A program made the position numbers and the translations under genes. The notes under the pieces were generated by a model that searched no databases, was not told the origin of the DNA, and worked only from the letters and a program-made list of their open reading frames with translations. A stretch of DNA of 55,168 nucleotides from a virus: positions 1 through 55,168 of IMG/VR virus record IMGVR_UViG_3300031673_000058, one strand, 5' to 3'. Within the stretch, counting starts at the first letter, position 1. Each line of letters starts with the position of its first letter. Shown piece after piece: positions 38,712-54,377 of this stretch.

Positions 38712-38933
38712 ATGATGCAGTTGAAAATCGTCCCTGAAGATCGGCACATGATTATCTCTGAGGCTACCGAGGTACGGGTGCTGTTCGATCGCGAAGTGGT
38801 TGAGGTATGGAGCCCCCGCGCCGGATTGTGGGCGTGCGTTGGGGTTCCATACGAGGAATTGCGTTCGTTCATTGCGGCGCTGAAGAGCGCGCAATGTCTG
38901 TTAGAGGAGCAACGGGAGAAATATGAAAACTGA
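38712..38933 (+). CDS. Small hypothetical protein before ParB
   Basis: 73 aa; a GGAGG-containing leader with ATAACCACGGAT repeats precedes it. Strand-rich, beginning MMQLKIVPEDRHMIISEATEVRVLF, then GVPYEELRSFIAALKSAQCLLEEQREKYEN, a helix overlapping the ParB start by 11 bases. Possibly co-translated with the large ParB-like protein. Function unknown. Confidence 0.5.
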   Translation: MMQLKIVPEDRHMIISEATEVRVLFDREVVEVWSPRAGLWACVGVPYEELRSFIAALKSAQCLLEEQREKYEN

Positions 38934-40986
38934 ATCGATTGCACTGTGGAACATTCGACCCTCACGCTGGCAGCCGCGCGAGCCGCAATTCGATGCCGAG
39001 TCTCTGACCGAACTCGCGCAGAGCATCCACGAGCATGGCCTCATTCATGCGATCCTCGTCTTTGGCTGTCCCGACGAGGACGGGTACACTGTTTGGGAGT
39101 TGATCGCCGGAGAGAGACGCGCGCGCGCCACCATCGCCCTGGAACTGGCAGAGTTATTCCCGCAGCACACGCTGGCGGAGTGGTGCACCAGGCTTGCCAA
39201 TGTGGGGCTGGCCGGGCTAGGGGAGGAGGAGCGCGCAGCGCTGAAGACGGCGCAGGCCACCATCCCCGCGCAGGTCTATCCCGCCGGCGATCTGAAGGTG
39301 CTACACCTCCTCGCCGTCATCGAGAATCTGGACCGCGCCGATCTCTCACCTATCGAGGAAGCGCGGGCTTACAAGGGATTGCTGGATGAGTACGGCTGGT
39401 CCCAGCGCGAACTGGCGGCGCACGTCAACAAATCCCAGGGCTACATCGCGCAGCGCCTGGCGATCCTGGGGCTGCCCCAGAGCGCGCAGGAGGCCGTGAG
39501 TACGCGCGTACTCAGTTTCTCGCACGCGCGGGCGCTGGCCGCCGTACCGGAGGCGCTTCAGGAAAGCATGACTGCCTGGACAGTGGCGGCGGTGCAGCAG
39601 GATAACAATCCGCTCACGTCGCGCCAGGTGGAGAACCGTCTGCGACAGGTCGCAGCCTTCGTCGATCCGGCGCGCTGGGAACCCAACGGAGAGACAATCT
39701 ACACGCCCGAACAGCGCAACCGGTTGCGCGTGATTCGCGGGATTTTGCAAAGCGAGGGCGATGATATTGCCAAACGCACCGACGCCATCCTGCTGCTGGC
39801 CGAGTCTGGCTATTCTAAAACCAATCTCCTGAATGTTAGACCGATTGAAGTGGTCAGTGATCGAGTCCACACATCCATGGTTATTGCGGCCCTATCCGGT
39901 AGTGAGCTCGACGAAGACAAGCGCATTGAAACTGCCGGCATGCTGTGCCATAACTGCGTGTGGGTGCAGGCTTGGGGTGAACTCTCGGCATATCCAAACC
40001 TTCCAATACCGTGCGCCAGGATCGAGCATCCAACCGCGCGCGCGTGCTCGAATTACATCGGCCCGGTTGATCCGGTCGTGATCCCCCTGTATTCGTGGGA
40101 CCTGCGGCGCGAGGCCGAAAGAATTGAGGGCGTGACGCTGATCACGGAACCCTTCCTCCACTTAACGAGCGTAGAGGAGTTCATCACGCTCTACCGGCAC
40201 ACGGCCACGTTCAGGATGAATCAGGACGACACACACGAACAGGCTGTGGCGCGCAAGCACATCGAGAAAATTCGCGAGTATTACGAATGGCAGCGAGATC
40301 TGCCGGATGCGTGGCGCGCGCACTTCCAGGCGCACGCTTGCGAGAAGTGCGTCCACTACGCGCCGTCGCTCATAGAGCAAGGGGATCCGCCCTGCGCTCT
40401 GGTCGTCAATCCGCTGGAAAAACGCGAGTATGGCAAGATGACCTACTGCGCGCCAGAGTTCGGTTGCCTGGTGCAATCCACTGGCCAACTCGCGCCGCGC
40501 TGCGAAGCGTTCGCCTACCGCGAGTTGCCGGGTTTCGCTTTCCCGGAGTATATGCTGATCAATCTCCCGGCGCGCAGTCGCGTTTTGGCCTGGTTGGAGG
40601 CCATCGCCGGGCAGGCCAAGAGCAACTACACGAATCATGTGCTCTGGGGTAGTTTCTCGTGGCTCAACTACGGTCGCACAATGGGGCACACTGCCGTGGA
40701 TTGGCCGGCGTTCAAAAAATGGCTCGGCGCGCATTGGGACGAACTCGGCGACGCGGCGGTCGCGCACCTCATCGATGTGGCCGTGAGTGAGCTGGAGCTT
40801 TTCCGGCACGTCGATACCGAGTTCGCGCTGCTCAACGCGACCGATACTCAGCCTGAGATATGGCGACGGCTCACATTCCCGTTTTCGTACTATCAAGAGC
40901 ACACTTACAGCATACCGCCTCATTGGCCGGAGGATTGGCCGAAACCGTGGGAGGGAGAATCACGGATAAGAGAAATGAATGATTAA
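38923..40986 (+). CDS. Large ParB-like protein with Cys-rich extension
   Basis: 687 aa. Residues 1-70 form a ParBc domain (IRPSRWQPR, ESLTELAQSIHEHGLIHAILV, WELIAGERRARA); residues ~120-210 a KorB-like HTH region (LAVIENLDRADLSPIEEARAYKGLLDEYGWSQRELAAHVNKSQGYIAQRLAILGLP). The ~450-residue C-terminal part is unusual for ParB: Cys-rich (CHNCVW, CARI, CEKCVHY, CALV, CAPEFGCLV) with no familiar domain. It may be a partition protein or a DNA-binding regulator. ParA lies about 0.5 kb downstream. Confidence 0.75.
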   Translation: MKTESIALWNIRPSRWQPREPQFDAESLTELAQSIHEHGLIHAILVFGCPDEDGYTVWELIAGERRARATIALELAELFPQHTLAEWCTRLANVGLAGLGEEERAALKTAQATIPAQVYPAGDLKVLHLLAVIENLDRADLSPIEEARAYKGLLDEYGWSQRELAAHVNKSQGYIAQRLAILGLPQSAQEAVSTRVLSFSHARALAAVPEALQESMTAWTVAAVQQDNNPLTSRQVENRLRQVAAFVDPARWEPNGETIYTPEQRNRLRVIRGILQSEGDDIAKRTDAILLLAESGYSKTNLLNVRPIEVVSDRVHTSMVIAALSGSELDEDKRIETAGMLCHNCVWVQAWGELSAYPNLPIPCARIEHPTARACSNYIGPVDPVVIPLYSWDLRREAERIEGVTLITEPFLHLTSVEEFITLYRHTATFRMNQDDTHEQAVARKHIEKIREYYEWQRDLPDAWRAHFQAHACEKCVHYAPSLIEQGDPPCALVVNPLEKREYGKMTYCAPEFGCLVQSTGQLAPRCEAFAYRELPGFAFPEYMLINLPARSRVLAWLEAIAGQAKSNYTNHVLWGSFSWLNYGRTMGHTAVDWPAFKKWLGAHWDELGDAAVAHLIDVAVSELELFRHVDTEFALLNATDTQPEIWRRLTFPFSYYQEHTYSIPPHWPEDWPKPWEGESRIREMND

Positions 40987-45590: not shown

Positions 45591-46116
45591 TACAGGATTA
45601 CAGATGCTTTTTGGCACGCCGGTCGCACTGGCAGATGATACCCCTGCTCGTCAGTCGTTGGTCAGTCGTCCGTTGGTCAGTCAGAGAGGGGGTGACGAAC
45701 GACTGACGAACGAAAGTGGGGTGGGGGGCCTCGCGGGCCTGTCTGCGGCGCACGTGGCGGCGGTGCTGCCGGCGTTGGTCGCGGGGATCGTGCAGCGCCC
45801 GGTCGTCTCGATCTCGCTGGTCGAGCAGTATGGGCGGGTCATGATAGCGCGCGTTGTGCCCTATGCGCAGGTTGATCCGGTGCTGCCGCTGGTCATGGGG
45901 CTACGGTCGCCTGGCTATTTGTACTGGTATCGCCGGTACTGGTCGGCGCTGATGCTGTTATTGGGCGGGTTCCCCACAGCGCTGCGGCGCGTCGAGCGGA
46001 TGAAGCGCCGTCTGCTGATGCAGTTATTCGGCCTGGGGTTGGAGGCGCGCGAGATCGCGTATTTCCAGACGTGGCTGGAGCATGGGAGCCTGGGGGATTA
46101 CACGTTAGGAGAGTAG
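45583..46116 (+). CDS. Hypothetical protein before the replication initiator
   Basis: 177 aa, ATG six bases after AAGGAG (45571-45576). The N-terminal ~40 residues are written by short GTTGGTCAGTC repeats (45657-45705). A central part RPVVSISLVEQYGRVMIARVVPYAQVDPVLPL is followed by a basic PTALRRVERMKRRLLMQLFGLGLEAREIAYFQTWLEHGSLG. It directly precedes and may assist the initiator; function unknown. Confidence 0.55.
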   Translation: MLDTGLQMLFGTPVALADDTPARQSLVSRPLVSQRGGDERLTNESGVGGLAGLSAAHVAAVLPALVAGIVQRPVVSISLVEQYGRVMIARVVPYAQVDPVLPLVMGLRSPGYLYWYRRYWSALMLLLGGFPTALRRVERMKRRLLMQLFGLGLEAREIAYFQTWLEHGSLGDYTLGE

Positions 46117-46118
46117 CC

Positions 46119-47018
46119 ATGACGCTCGCGATTACAACGCCGCAACAACTTTGGACTACGGCTCTCGGAGAGCTCGAACTACAGATGACGCGGGCGACGT
46201 TCGACACGTGGCTGCGGGACACGCAGTGCATCGGGCGCGACGAAGACAATACGCTCGTCATCACCGTGAAGAATGGCTACGCGGTGGAGTGGCTGGAGAA
46301 CCGGCTCTATCCGGTCATCGAGCGCACCTTGCAGCGCGTGACCGGGAACGGGACGCTGGCACGGTTTGTGATCAACGAACCAAAGCGCGCCAGGCCCACC
46401 GTTACCCTACCAGACATTCCGGCTACCTACGATCTCGTCGCAGAACTGGCCGACGTGCTGCGGAATGTGATTGACCCCGCAACCCGCAAGCTCCTCCAGG
46501 AGCGCATCGCCGCCATTCAGGGGGTGCCTGAGCCAGAGCCACCCACCCCACCCGTAGACTTCGACACTTACGGCAAAGCCGGCGGCGGCTGGTATCCCAT
46601 CAGCAATTACGCGGATGCTTTCTGGAAGCCTTTGCTGCGCGAGCGCAAAGCCTTCCTGACCTACACCACCATCCGCGCGCTGGACAAAAACGCGGCCAGC
46701 AGCGAGTGGACGCAGATGAAACACGTGCCGATCCGCGAGATTATGCAGCGTGTGCCGTGCTCGCGCAATACAATCTTGGGAGAAATGCGCGGTGGAGTCT
46801 ACCGGTCTGGCGCGCTCGATATGCTGCGAGAGGCCGGTCTGGCGCGGCTCGAGGTGCATGGCGACGACAAACACACGACGTATCACGTTTCAGTCGTGAC
46901 AAAACTGCCGCTGCTGACAGCGGTACAGGCACAACAGCTTTCCGACGAGTTACAGGCTCAGCACCGGGCTTTCCTGGTGCAGCACAGCATCGATCCGACG
47001 CCCTGGGAACCAGATTAA
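46119..47018 (+). CDS. Replication initiator: DnaA domain I fused to a winged-helix part
   Basis: 299 aa; AGGAG 7-12 bases upstream. Residues 8-75 match the DnaA N-terminal domain (LWTTALGELELQMTRATFDTWLRDTQCIGRDEDNTLVITVKNGYAVEWLENRLYPVIERTL). No AAA+ ATPase or DnaA domain IV follows. Residues ~150-275 (WKPLLRERKAFLTYTTIRAL...PIREIMQRVPCSRNTILGEM...) resemble winged-helix plasmid initiators. It probably binds the palindromic sites directly downstream (47029-47290) and recruits host DnaB through domain I. Confidence 0.75.
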   Translation: MTLAITTPQQLWTTALGELELQMTRATFDTWLRDTQCIGRDEDNTLVITVKNGYAVEWLENRLYPVIERTLQRVTGNGTLARFVINEPKRARPTVTLPDIPATYDLVAELADVLRNVIDPATRKLLQERIAAIQGVPEPEPPTPPVDFDTYGKAGGGWYPISNYADAFWKPLLRERKAFLTYTTIRALDKNAASSEWTQMKHVPIREIMQRVPCSRNTILGEMRGGVYRSGALDMLREAGLARLEVHGDDKHTTYHVSVVTKLPLLTAVQAQQLSDELQAQHRAFLVQHSIDPTPWEPD

Positions 47019-47028
47019 ACCGACAGAC

Positions 47029-47290
47029 GTTTGATGTCAAAATTGACATCAGCTGATGTCAATTTTGACATCAAACACAGGAACGAACCCCGGAACAAGG
47101 TCTTGTTCCGGGGCTTTTTTTGCCTACGGTTTTGTGAATTTTTCCGGGATACGCATTTACCGATGTCACTTTCCCGCAGAAATACTTAACCGTGATGTCA
47201 AAATTGACATCACGGTTAAGTATTTACATTAACGGCAGGGGGGGAAGAAGAAAAATAAAGAAAAATTAAAAAACAAAGAGATTCTATCCT
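47029..47290. other. Candidate replication origin with three 18-bp palindromic sites
   Basis: A perfect 48-bp palindrome (47029-47076) contains two copies of GATGTCAAAATTGACATC in opposite orientation. A third copy lies in a second, 44-bp inverted repeat (47181-47224) whose arms pair fully around a two-base centre. A pure A-rich strand follows (47244-47290, 35+ A), suitable for unwinding. A terminator (47088-47121) lies between the two. The initiator gene ends 11 bases before the first palindrome. Confidence 0.7.
47088..47121 (+). terminator. Rho-independent terminator of the initiator gene
   Basis: CCCCGGAACAAG-GT-CTTGTTCCGGGG (47088-47113) followed by C and seven T. The hairpin would close with a six-base loop. 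It lies inside the putative origin and shields the second palindrome from transcription. Confidence 0.9.
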
Positions 47291-48090: not shown

Positions 48091-48399
48091 GACGCGCTAT
48101 GGAAAGGGCGGGCGACAACAGAGAGCAGGATGGGGAGAAATGGAGGATGTAGAACAAGATATGAGGAACGCCCGGTTATGGCCGGGCGTTTGGTGTGGGA
48201 GGAACGAGTTTTGAAGTTTGGTGGGAAAAACTCTTGACAACGCGGGGAATATCCGCTATAATGTTCATATTGGAACGTTGGCCGCTAACGGGCATTAACA
48301 GACGATAAGCGGGTGGGAAGTGGTCGAAAAGTCGGCTTTGAGGATGTTTAAGATCGTTATAAAACGTCAGTTAAATGGTTTAGAAAGAAGGAATAGACG
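48091..48399 (+). other. 309-bp gap: hairpin, strong promoter, operator and TTAA boxes
   Basis: Contains a 9-bp hairpin AACGCCCGG-TTATGG-CCGGGCGTT (48167-48190, no T tract), the consensus promoter 48234-48262 with an operator-like palindrome, and a CTAA-N6-TTAA pair (48285, 48295). No gene was seen. Confidence 0.7.
48234..48278 (+). promoter_or_regulatory. Consensus promoter overlapped by GTTC/GAAC operator
   Basis: TTGACA (48234-48239), 17-bp spacer, TATAAT (48257-48262). ATGTTCATATTGGAACGT (48261-48278) overlaps the -10 and start site and matches 14 of 18 bases of the operator at 33916. A repressor bound here would block RNA polymerase. The GGGAAAAACT upstream element resembles the GAGAGT promoters. 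Confidence 0.8.
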
Positions 48400-48889: not shown

Positions 48890-48924
48890 GGGCGTCCAAC
48901 ATTTCACTTGAAAGGGGTAAAAGG

Positions 48925-49914: not shown

Positions 49915-50150
49915 GGCGCAAGCCTAAAACACAGAGACAATGGGGAGTGAGAGTACCCGCAATAACAAAGTGGCGCCGGTGTTTGTGGAGCAGAAGGCGC
50001 TGCGGGTGATTTGATTGTGGCGCGTAGAATGAGGAGAAATTCGTGTTCTGCGCGCCTTTTTGTGCTGTTAATATGTGTTAATTGGCATTATCCTGGCGCG
50101 GGTGTAGAATCACGGATATAGAACATCTGTTCGGAGGGATGAGGCAGACG
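49915..50150 (+). other. Gap after the recombinase
   Basis: A 24-codon frame (49940-50014, MGSESTRNNKVAPVFVEQKA...) has no good ribosome site and is uncertain. A terminator follows (50019-50061), then a TTAA-N6-TTAA pair (50068, 50078). Nothing else supported. Confidence 0.5.
50019..50061 (+). terminator. Rho-independent terminator
   Basis: GGCGCGTAGAA (50019-50029) pairs with TTCTGCGCGCC (50046-50056, one G-T) and is followed by five T. It probably ends the recombinase transcript. Confidence 0.75.
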
Positions 50151-50703: not shown

Positions 50704-50780
50704 AAAACTGGTGATAACTCGTGATTGACATCCCGTGTGATCCTGTGAGAGAGTGAGGGCATCTTACTTGAAAGGGGATA
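50704..50780 (+). promoter_or_regulatory. Phage promoter family, copy B
   Basis: TTGACA (50725-50730), 18-bp spacer with TGA, GAGAGT (50749-50754), then leader ACTTGAAAGGGG (50766-50777). TCGTGAT at 50719-50725 and GGTGAT at 50710-50715. An ACTACGGATAGGAGAAAT copy at 50631 is the left end of the module. It drives the amidoligase gene. Confidence 0.75.
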
Positions 50781-52309: not shown

Positions 52310-52351
52310 TCAGCTATTAGCGATCAGTAGTTACTTGAAAGGGGTATGGGG

Positions 52352-53242
52352 ATGACGGGGATTCAGGATGTGGCGGTGGTCCGGATCGTGCCGGGCGACA
52401 ATGACCGGGAAGAATTCGAGCCGGTGGCGTTGCGCGAGTTGGTCGACAGTATTGCGCAGCACGGGCTAGCGCAGCCGATCACGGTGCGGCTCTACGGGGC
52501 GGGGTATCAGATTGTGGCCGGGGAACGGCGCTGGCGGGCGGCGCTGCTCCTGGGATGGGAGACGATCCCGGCGCTGGTGCGCGAGTTAGATGACGAAGCA
52601 GCCAGCGCGATTATGCTCTTGGAGAACATCCAGCGGGCGGAGTTGAACCCCATCGAGGAGGCGCGCGCCTATCGCAAACGGATGACACAGTTTGGATGGG
52701 ATGCTGACACAACGGCGCGCGCGGCCAACGTGCCGGTGGAACGGGTGCGGCTGCGGTTGATGTTGCTGGACGTGGTGCCGGAAGCGCAGCAGCTCATCCG
52801 CGACGGGCAGTTGGGGGTGAAGTACGCCTACGTGATGCGCGATCTGGACGCGAACCGGCAGAGACTGGCGTTGCGCTATCTGAGCCTGGTGGACACGCCG
52901 CGCCTGCGGGAGTTCCGCGAGTTGTGCGCACGATTGTTGGCGGAGCAGGCCCAGGAAGCGATGTTCGATATGGCGGCGTTTATGACCGGGGTGCAAGTCA
53001 CGCGCGCCCAGGAAGCCACGAGCCGCCTGGAGCGAGTGATCCCGGTGGACGCCGATCTGCCCGGCGTGCGCAAGGCGCGCTCAGCGGGACAGGCATTGGA
53101 GCGCTACATCCGCGATCTGCTGGACGGGGGGTTGGACGACGCGGCGCGGGTGGTGGGGACGGTGTACCAGGGGTTGCTGGCGCACGGGTTGGTGAAACTG
53201 CCGGGTGGACCTAGTCCGCTCATCCCCGGTGAGACGCTATGA
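52352..53242 (+). CDS. ParB-like protein, third copy
   Basis: 296 aa; ACTTGAAAGGGG leader (52333-52344), ATG at 52352 (alternative at 52346). ParBc: RIVPGDNDREEFEP, ALRELVDSIAQHGLAQPITV, IVAGERRWRAALLLGW (residues ~50-68), then AIMLLENIQRAELNPIEEARAYRKRM and an HTH-like region (AARAANVPVERVRLRLMLLD). Ordinary ParB length. It follows the amidoligase and PuuD-like genes, so it could be a third gene of that unit rather than the partner of the ParA at 41536. Confidence 0.85.
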   Translation: MTGIQDVAVVRIVPGDNDREEFEPVALRELVDSIAQHGLAQPITVRLYGAGYQIVAGERRWRAALLLGWETIPALVRELDDEAASAIMLLENIQRAELNPIEEARAYRKRMTQFGWDADTTARAANVPVERVRLRLMLLDVVPEAQQLIRDGQLGVKYAYVMRDLDANRQRLALRYLSLVDTPRLREFRELCARLLAEQAQEAMFDMAAFMTGVQVTRAQEATSRLERVIPVDADLPGVRKARSAGQALERYIRDLLDGGLDDAARVVGTVYQGLLAHGLVKLPGGPSPLIPGETL

Positions 53243-53310: not shown

Positions 53311-53346
53311 TCGTGATTGACAACCGGTGTGCTTTTGTGAGAGAGT
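53311..53346 (+). promoter_or_regulatory. Phage promoter family, copy C
   Basis: TTGACA (53317-53322), 18-bp spacer with TGA, GAGAGT (53341-53346). Upstream CTGGTGATAATTCGTGAT matches copy B. ACCACGGATAAGAGAAAT lies at 53268-53285, and the palindrome-like TGAATACGCGCGTAATCA at 53240-53257. This promoter drives the small gene at 53399. Confidence 0.7.
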
Positions 53347-54227: not shown

Positions 54228-54258
54228 GAGAAATGGACGATGGGAAGCGCGGTTACGG

Positions 54259-54286
54259 AGGCCGGTCAATTAGACCGGCCTTTTTT
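54259..54286 (+). terminator. Rho-independent terminator
   Basis: AGGCCGGTC-AATTA-GACCGGCCT (perfect 9-bp stem) followed by five more T. It ends the gene at 53670 and starts the RadC module. Confidence 0.9.
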
Positions 54287-54308: not shown

Positions 54309-54377
54309 TGGCGATAACTCGTGATTGACAATCCGTGATTGCCTGTGCGAGAGTGAGCGCATCTTACTTGAAAGGGG
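54309..54377 (+). promoter_or_regulatory. Phage promoter family, copy D
   Basis: TTGACA (54325-54330), 18-bp spacer with TGC, GAGAGT (54349-54354), leader ACTTGAAAGGGG (54366-54377). GGCGATAACTCGTGAT upstream matches copy B. Drives radC. Confidence 0.75.

Follow-up and report, generated by a model that had tools for sequence, protein, structure and literature searches.

A probable promoter family with GAGAGT in place of the −10 hexamer, conserved in one lineage of uncultured phages

Ahead of four genes in a 55,168-nucleotide stretch of viral DNA (positions 1 to 55,168 of IMG/VR record IMGVR_UViG_3300031673_000058, here called the window), a perfect −35 hexamer is followed by GAGAGT at the place of the −10 box. 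This raises the question whether such sites are promoters and, if so, what reads them. An earlier note on this DNA had listed four copies of TTGACA-N15-TGN-GAGAGT, at 2044, 50725, 53317 and 54325. All four were found to be exact and to lie on the plus strand, and the pattern did not occur in 100 dinucleotide-preserving shuffles of the window; these shuffles and pattern scans of viral contigs rule out a chance origin of the copies. A weight matrix built from the four window sites and two related sites revealed no additional family member in the window.

Copy 1 (2044–2073) precedes a gene for an MgsA_C-like protein (start 2102) and has an orthologous copy in five relatives. Copy 2 (50725–50754), with its TTGACA −35, 18-bp spacer containing TGn and GAGAGT −10, stands before an amidoligase gene (start 50786), followed by a GATase-like gene, named from sequence resemblance only, and a ParB-like gene. 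Copy 3 (53317–53346) is found before a small ORF (start about 53399) and copy 4 (TGCGAGAGT, 54325–54354) before radC (start 54385), with a terminator-like hairpin and T run (plus strand, 54257–54283) immediately 5′ of copy 4. The first 27 bases of the window are repeated at its terminus, which makes a circular molecule probable; on a circle, the four copies fall within a single continuous stretch of about 6.5 kb across the junction, from 50.7 kb to the end and on to 2.1 kb. The genes had been called early in the note; the amidoligase/glutamine-amidotransferase/ParB operon, the small ORF, RadC and the MgsA_C protein give no timing, and this label was dropped.

Relatives were found by pattern scans of viral contigs and by protein searches. 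Five related uncultured phage contigs carry the promoter element in 12 further copies, bringing the total to 16: four in 3300037504_001248 (G001), five in 3300037504_000618 (G002), both from one shared sample, and one each in 3300035253_000017 (G003), 3300022664_000371 (G004) and 3300028388_003712 (G510). The promoted genes, where identifiable, are the same across these relatives: all six contigs have the MgsA_C gene, and the window shares RadC and a small ParB-like gene with G001 and G002, and the amidoligase with G002. The suggestion of a coordinated promoter family is thus borne out by 16 copies in six contigs, and the motif is conserved in related genomes, a point on which the earlier note had staked its reading. 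No close cultured relative of this group of tailed phages was found, and the 201-bp element around copy 2 had no match among 50,697 GenBank phages. A lone motif match in an unrelated contig (L202), where a Shine-Dalgarno (SD) and start context is not evident, is probably due to chance and was set aside. In the G001 and G002 homologues of the ParB-like protein (window 52346–53242), a cysteine-rich, zinc-ribbon-like insertion was seen inside ParB_N, which is missing from the window copy.

Upon alignment of the 16 sites, TTGACA, the TG of the extended −10 and GAGAGT were each present in every copy. The TGN ahead of GAGAGT was therefore described correctly, its last base (A in 12 sites, G in three, C in one) being the position that an extended −10 leaves free. 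The upstream part of this element reads TGTGn in 15 sites and CGTGn in one, in agreement with TRTGn. The spacer, reported as an identical 18 bp, is 18 bp in all four window copies and in G001, G003 and G004, but 17 bp in G002 and G510. The −35 and its spacing are thus those of a primary-sigma promoter, while no site has a TAnnnT hexamer, and no better −10 was located at 14–21 bp from the −35, so that an alternative canonical −10 was rejected. GAGAGT and TATAAT have the same base at positions 2, 4 and 6, of which only 2 and 6 had been credited before. Seven nucleotides past the hexamer an A is found in 15 of 16 sites, preceded by C or T in 14, whereas a pyrimidine followed by A reaches at most 9/16 at any other offset, which points to a pyrimidine-purine start. 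For copy 2, positions 50755–50761 of the plus strand comprise the discriminator GAG and the putative initiator C(−1)A(+1), the start being predicted at 50761 from the offset across the 16 sites. The conserved unit is longer than first described and can be written as YTCGTGMTTGACA-N4-RWG-N5/6-YGTGnGAGAGTGAG-N3-YA.

The constancy of these blocks was compared with that of the DNA between them. Among the six orthologues of the MgsA_C promoter, pairwise identity was 100% in the −35, 97% in GTGnGAGAGT and 100% in the GAG that follows, whereas spacer and UTR reached 43% and 38%; by this measure the spacer is saturated between orthologues. All 16 copies lie on the coding strand, and an SD and start codon follow GAGAGT at 28–37 nt, once at 52 nt (15 sites measured together, the G510 copy read separately). 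Terminator-like hairpins were present immediately 5′ of several copies. A spacer slip of 1 bp is tolerated by sigma-type promoters and not by a single rigid protein site. As far as sequence can tell, this anatomy is the signature of a sigma-type −35/extended −10 promoter, and the sites are in all probability real promoters, forming a conserved, lineage-specific family with a deviant −10.

Could the repeats instead be DNA- or RNA-binding elements, involved in partition, replication or a 5′-leader RNA? Such long invariant blocks would fit a binding element, and a more distant phage (G511) has the same genes behind a different repeated element with inverted repeats. This reading is nevertheless considered very improbable: the consensus fold from RNAalifold had an energy of only −0.75 kcal/mol and no pair with compensatory changes on both sides, the spacer differs by 1 bp among the phages while initiator and extended −10 stay in register, and orientation and start-codon distance are fixed. 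An RNA leader was rejected for lack of structure, and no Rfam family was found in the window.

The more distant phage (L199–L201, IMGVR 3300028840_002119) carries the same gene module, and its versions of the promoted genes are without the GAGAGT promoter. Its own upstream element occurs in four copies (reversed coordinates 51865, 52278, 54714 and 56564) and consists of GGRTAGG..CCTAYYC followed by CTGACGATGGCAaGTCAG, with two inverted repeats 5′ of the SD. This element is reminiscent of the ESAS of cluster K phages and, being of different sequence, was not accepted as a member of the same family.

A leader, ACTTGAAAGGGG, had been noted in two of the promoter copies as if part of them. It does stand beside two promoters, with the copy at 50766–50777 (plus strand) between promoter copy 2 and its gene, but five exact copies occur in the window (48906, 50766, 52333, 53654 and 54366), and those at 48906, 52333 and 53654 are without a GAGAGT promoter, while the promoters at 2044 and 53317 have other SD leaders. 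Because of these three copies and two promoters, ACTTGAAAGGGG is regarded as a separate, start-codon-linked SD leader, and its role as a promoter component was rejected, as it mostly occurs apart and its exact form is absent from the relatives. The nearest plausible start codon lies 5–8 nt past the GGGG of ACTTGAAAGGGG in a set of five exact copies, as expected of a start-associated sequence (SAS). Being a 12-nt asymmetric, SD-like repeat before starts whose conservation goes beyond the need for SD pairing, it resembles the SAS of cluster K mycobacteriophages (PMC3203893), but its sequence is different, it has five copies only, and it is a leader and not a promoter. In G001, ACTTGAAAGGAG was seen before radC.

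The −10 hexamer is where the family departs from the ordinary. Promoters of the usual type are present in the window (TTGACA-17-TATAAT at 48234, TTGGCA-17-TAGAAT at 50082 and TTGACA-16-TATAAT at 47), as are TATAAT promoters in G510; the host polymerase therefore presumably reads TATAAT. The primary sigma factor reads A−11 and T−7 as single-stranded bases, and ordinary promoters show drift at −10 and −8. In GAGAGT, A−11 and T−7 are kept and T−12 is absent, and G is invariant at −12, −10 and −8. Judged from the alignment, these three G residues are selected, because they are fixed across a saturated background. Compared with primary-sigma extended −10 promoters (TRTGn-TATAAT), the family shares TTGACA, the 17–18 bp spacing, TRTGn, A−11, T−7 and a YA start 7 nt downstream, and differs in the missing T−12 and the invariant G residues. 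As the −10 fails the TAnnnT pattern, the family was not filed with the ordinary sigma70 promoters, even if, given help, it very probably functions in the same way. If transcription starts here, a −10 without T−12 has been maintained across strongly diverged phages beside perfect TATAAT promoters, and an entire regulon follows reading rules that the primary sigma is expected to refuse. How far −10 recognition can stretch, and which phage factors move that boundary, would then be open to direct test in this phage group, with the 16-site alignment indicating the bases for mutation.

Where such help might come from is suggested by the DNA around the −35. In the window, TCGTGAT is present at 2038, 50719, 53311 and 54319, each time sharing the first T of TTGACA, which confirms the placing of this box at the −35 side of all four copies. 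Over the 16 sites, the T and both G residues of TCGTG are invariant and the entire box abuts the −35 in 15; in the remaining one, G510, a degenerate form, CTAGAGA, stands next to the −35, with CTCGTA and CTGGTG higher up. Most sites have extra CTCGTG/CTGGTG-type boxes 10, 11, 21 or 32 bp upstream. Copy 1 has boxes at 2027 and 2038, and copy 2 has CTGGTGAT and CTCGTGAT (plus strand, 50708–50725), 10 bp apart with the second abutting the −35. These distances, near whole helical turns, are suggestive of boxes in phase, with about six or seven independent cases. On its sequence and position the CGTG box looks like a putative factor-binding site. Coding constraint, considered since short frames ending in ..RD* precede some copies, was rejected as the cause of the box because the frames ahead of it vary from copy to copy and from phage to phage. 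A weak RWG, four bases 3′ of TTGACA, is kept in 16 of 16 sites; because its distance from the −35 stays constant when the spacer changes, it is possibly part of the site for that factor, although with about three independent lineages this could be chance. A near-perfect palindrome, ATTCGTGAT-GT-ATCACGAAT, composed of the TCGTGAT that also forms the promoter box, was observed at the end of the MgsA_C gene (2714–2733); it is kept in G003 (about 2470) and absent in G001, G002 and G004.

The reading given somewhat better than even chances is that host RNA polymerase, making normal −35, spacing and extended −10 contacts, is activated by a factor at the CTCGTG boxes that controls an accessory module, with every step beyond the sequence anatomy being inferred. 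Host polymerase with its main sigma would engage the −35, TGn, A−11 and T−7. Near-silence of the promoter alone is proposed because the −10 lacks both T−12 and an AT-rich core. A DNA-bound factor would then be required, reading the CTCGTG box next to the −35 together with the copies in phase upstream; it would switch on jointly one contiguous accessory module of amidoligase-ParB, small ORF, RadC and MgsA_C. Several facts count against factor-dependent reading: G510 has CTAGAGA as its box beside a fully preserved −35 and −10, dependence on an activator usually goes with a weakened −35 and not a weakened −10, and a merely weak −10 leaves the selection for G at −12, −10 and −8 unexplained.

Known phage systems offer partial models for such a factor. 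T4 middle promoters, with a MotA box and AsiA, are a possible analogy as a phage promoter set with a factor box near the −35; there a normal −10 is combined with a box in the place of the −35, whereas the arrangement here is reversed, with TTGACA intact and the −10 deviant, so that the family does not fall in the T4 middle class. In lambda cII-dependent promoters, a direct-repeat factor box lies at the −35, its repeats flanking a poor −35, and one factor serves several promoters. A box at the −35 and a poor hexamer are shared traits, but in the present family the −35 is perfect and the −10 poor instead. Putative flanking repeats of the cII type may be represented by CTCGTG upstream of the −35 and by the weak RWG, present in all 16 sites, downstream of it.

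DNA-binding-capable genes common to the window, G002 and G510, the more complete carriers of the promoter, encode a 687-aa ParB/HTH protein (window 38923–40986), a DnaA_N-domain protein (46071–47018) and an integrase, the first two being listed as candidate factors only. With G511 included, making a comparison of four genomes, none of the three had a full-length match there. Just 3′ of the DnaA_N-domain gene, tandem palindromes TGATGTCAAAATTGACATCA (47032–47073) and, at 47180–47225, a 46-bp palindrome sharing their core were observed, a possible replication origin or partition site.

The box could also be a repressor operator overlapping the −35 of a weak constitutive host promoter that serves accessory 'moron' cassettes, as in mycobacteriophage L5. 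The CGTG boxes are asymmetric, oriented and at promoters, as are L5-type operators and stoperators (PMC9283540), and several cassettes are bounded by terminator-like hairpins. In contrast to the L5 type, no oriented, promoter-less excess of YTCGTG was found in the window (28 plus, 29 minus) or in G002 (37 and 34), nor does a repressor account for the invariant GAGAGT or for in-phase tandem copies that lie as far as 32 bp ahead of the box at the −35. This explanation was judged quite unlikely, and activation through the boxes is retained as the preferred reading.

The constant hexamer bears more directly on a third possibility, namely that GAGAGT is the preferred −10 of an altered specificity, either of an alternative sigma factor (from the host, or a phage protein that escaped detection) or one brought about by a phage protein acting to remodel sigma region 2. 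G at −12, −10 and −8 in 16 of 16 sites, next to a saturated spacer, is what a positively read hexamer would give. SPO1 late promoters (CGTTAGA-N17-19-GATATT), read with phage gp33-gp34, show that a G−12 hexamer can mark a phage sigma (PMC3601020), and sigma-remodelling proteins are known and have been reviewed (PMC7403470). The likeness to SPO1 late promoters extends to a phage-specific class, similar spacing and a G-A-n-A-n-T hexamer, but their −35 is different, and SPO1-type phages encode a sigma factor, of which none was detected here in five phage records (those other than G510; three of them short, probably fragments), with no match to Sigma70_r2 (E≤10) and none to Sigma70_r4 above the cut-off. 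The −35, moreover, is the primary-sigma consensus. Altered −10 specificity is regarded as the main rival, well short of even chances. A specific form of it, in which a phage or phage-recruited protein without a recognisable sigma domain would shift the −10 specificity of host polymerase to GAGAGT and so create a private regulon under primary-sigma −35, spacing and start rules, is regarded as doubtful.

A scan of the 18-bp form of the motif, over one genome for each of about 85,000 species, gave no more than chance-like matches, and the boxed form had none in 400 Chloroflexota; in 158 genomes of one Chloroflexota class, three forward matches stood against two in the control, without enrichment. 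This counts against altered specificity, and a host-wide promoter class was rejected on the chance-like matches, with the proviso that the true host may be unsampled. A host in the Chloroflexota is a guess, made because a ParB/RadC gene pair of about 40–44% identity occurs in two genomes of this phylum, the only one searched with these proteins; a terminase search (0 of 400 Chloroflexota at E≤1e-90) was uninformative.

Further elements were recorded in the window beside the family. Boxes of the form GAAC-N4-GTTC (GAACATAAGTTC, GAACATCTGTTC and GAACACACGTTC) lie just 3′ of TATAAT-type promoters, at 77–88 and 50121–50132 in the window and at about 6172–6183 in L089. They resemble Gram-positive LexA boxes, by analogy with which these TATAAT promoters may be SOS-controlled. 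A CTGTCAG...ATTCCGGGGC repeat running into a strong terminator-like hairpin (235–310 and 2760–2817) is kept in G001, G003 and G004 and has no Rfam match; it is possibly a leader RNA or terminator element. A homologue of the TET-associated glycosyltransferase (TAGT) was found beside a ParB-like gene (1180–2043 and 329–1069), the latter also matching a phage DNA-methyltransferase family, and this pair suggests DNA hypermodification.
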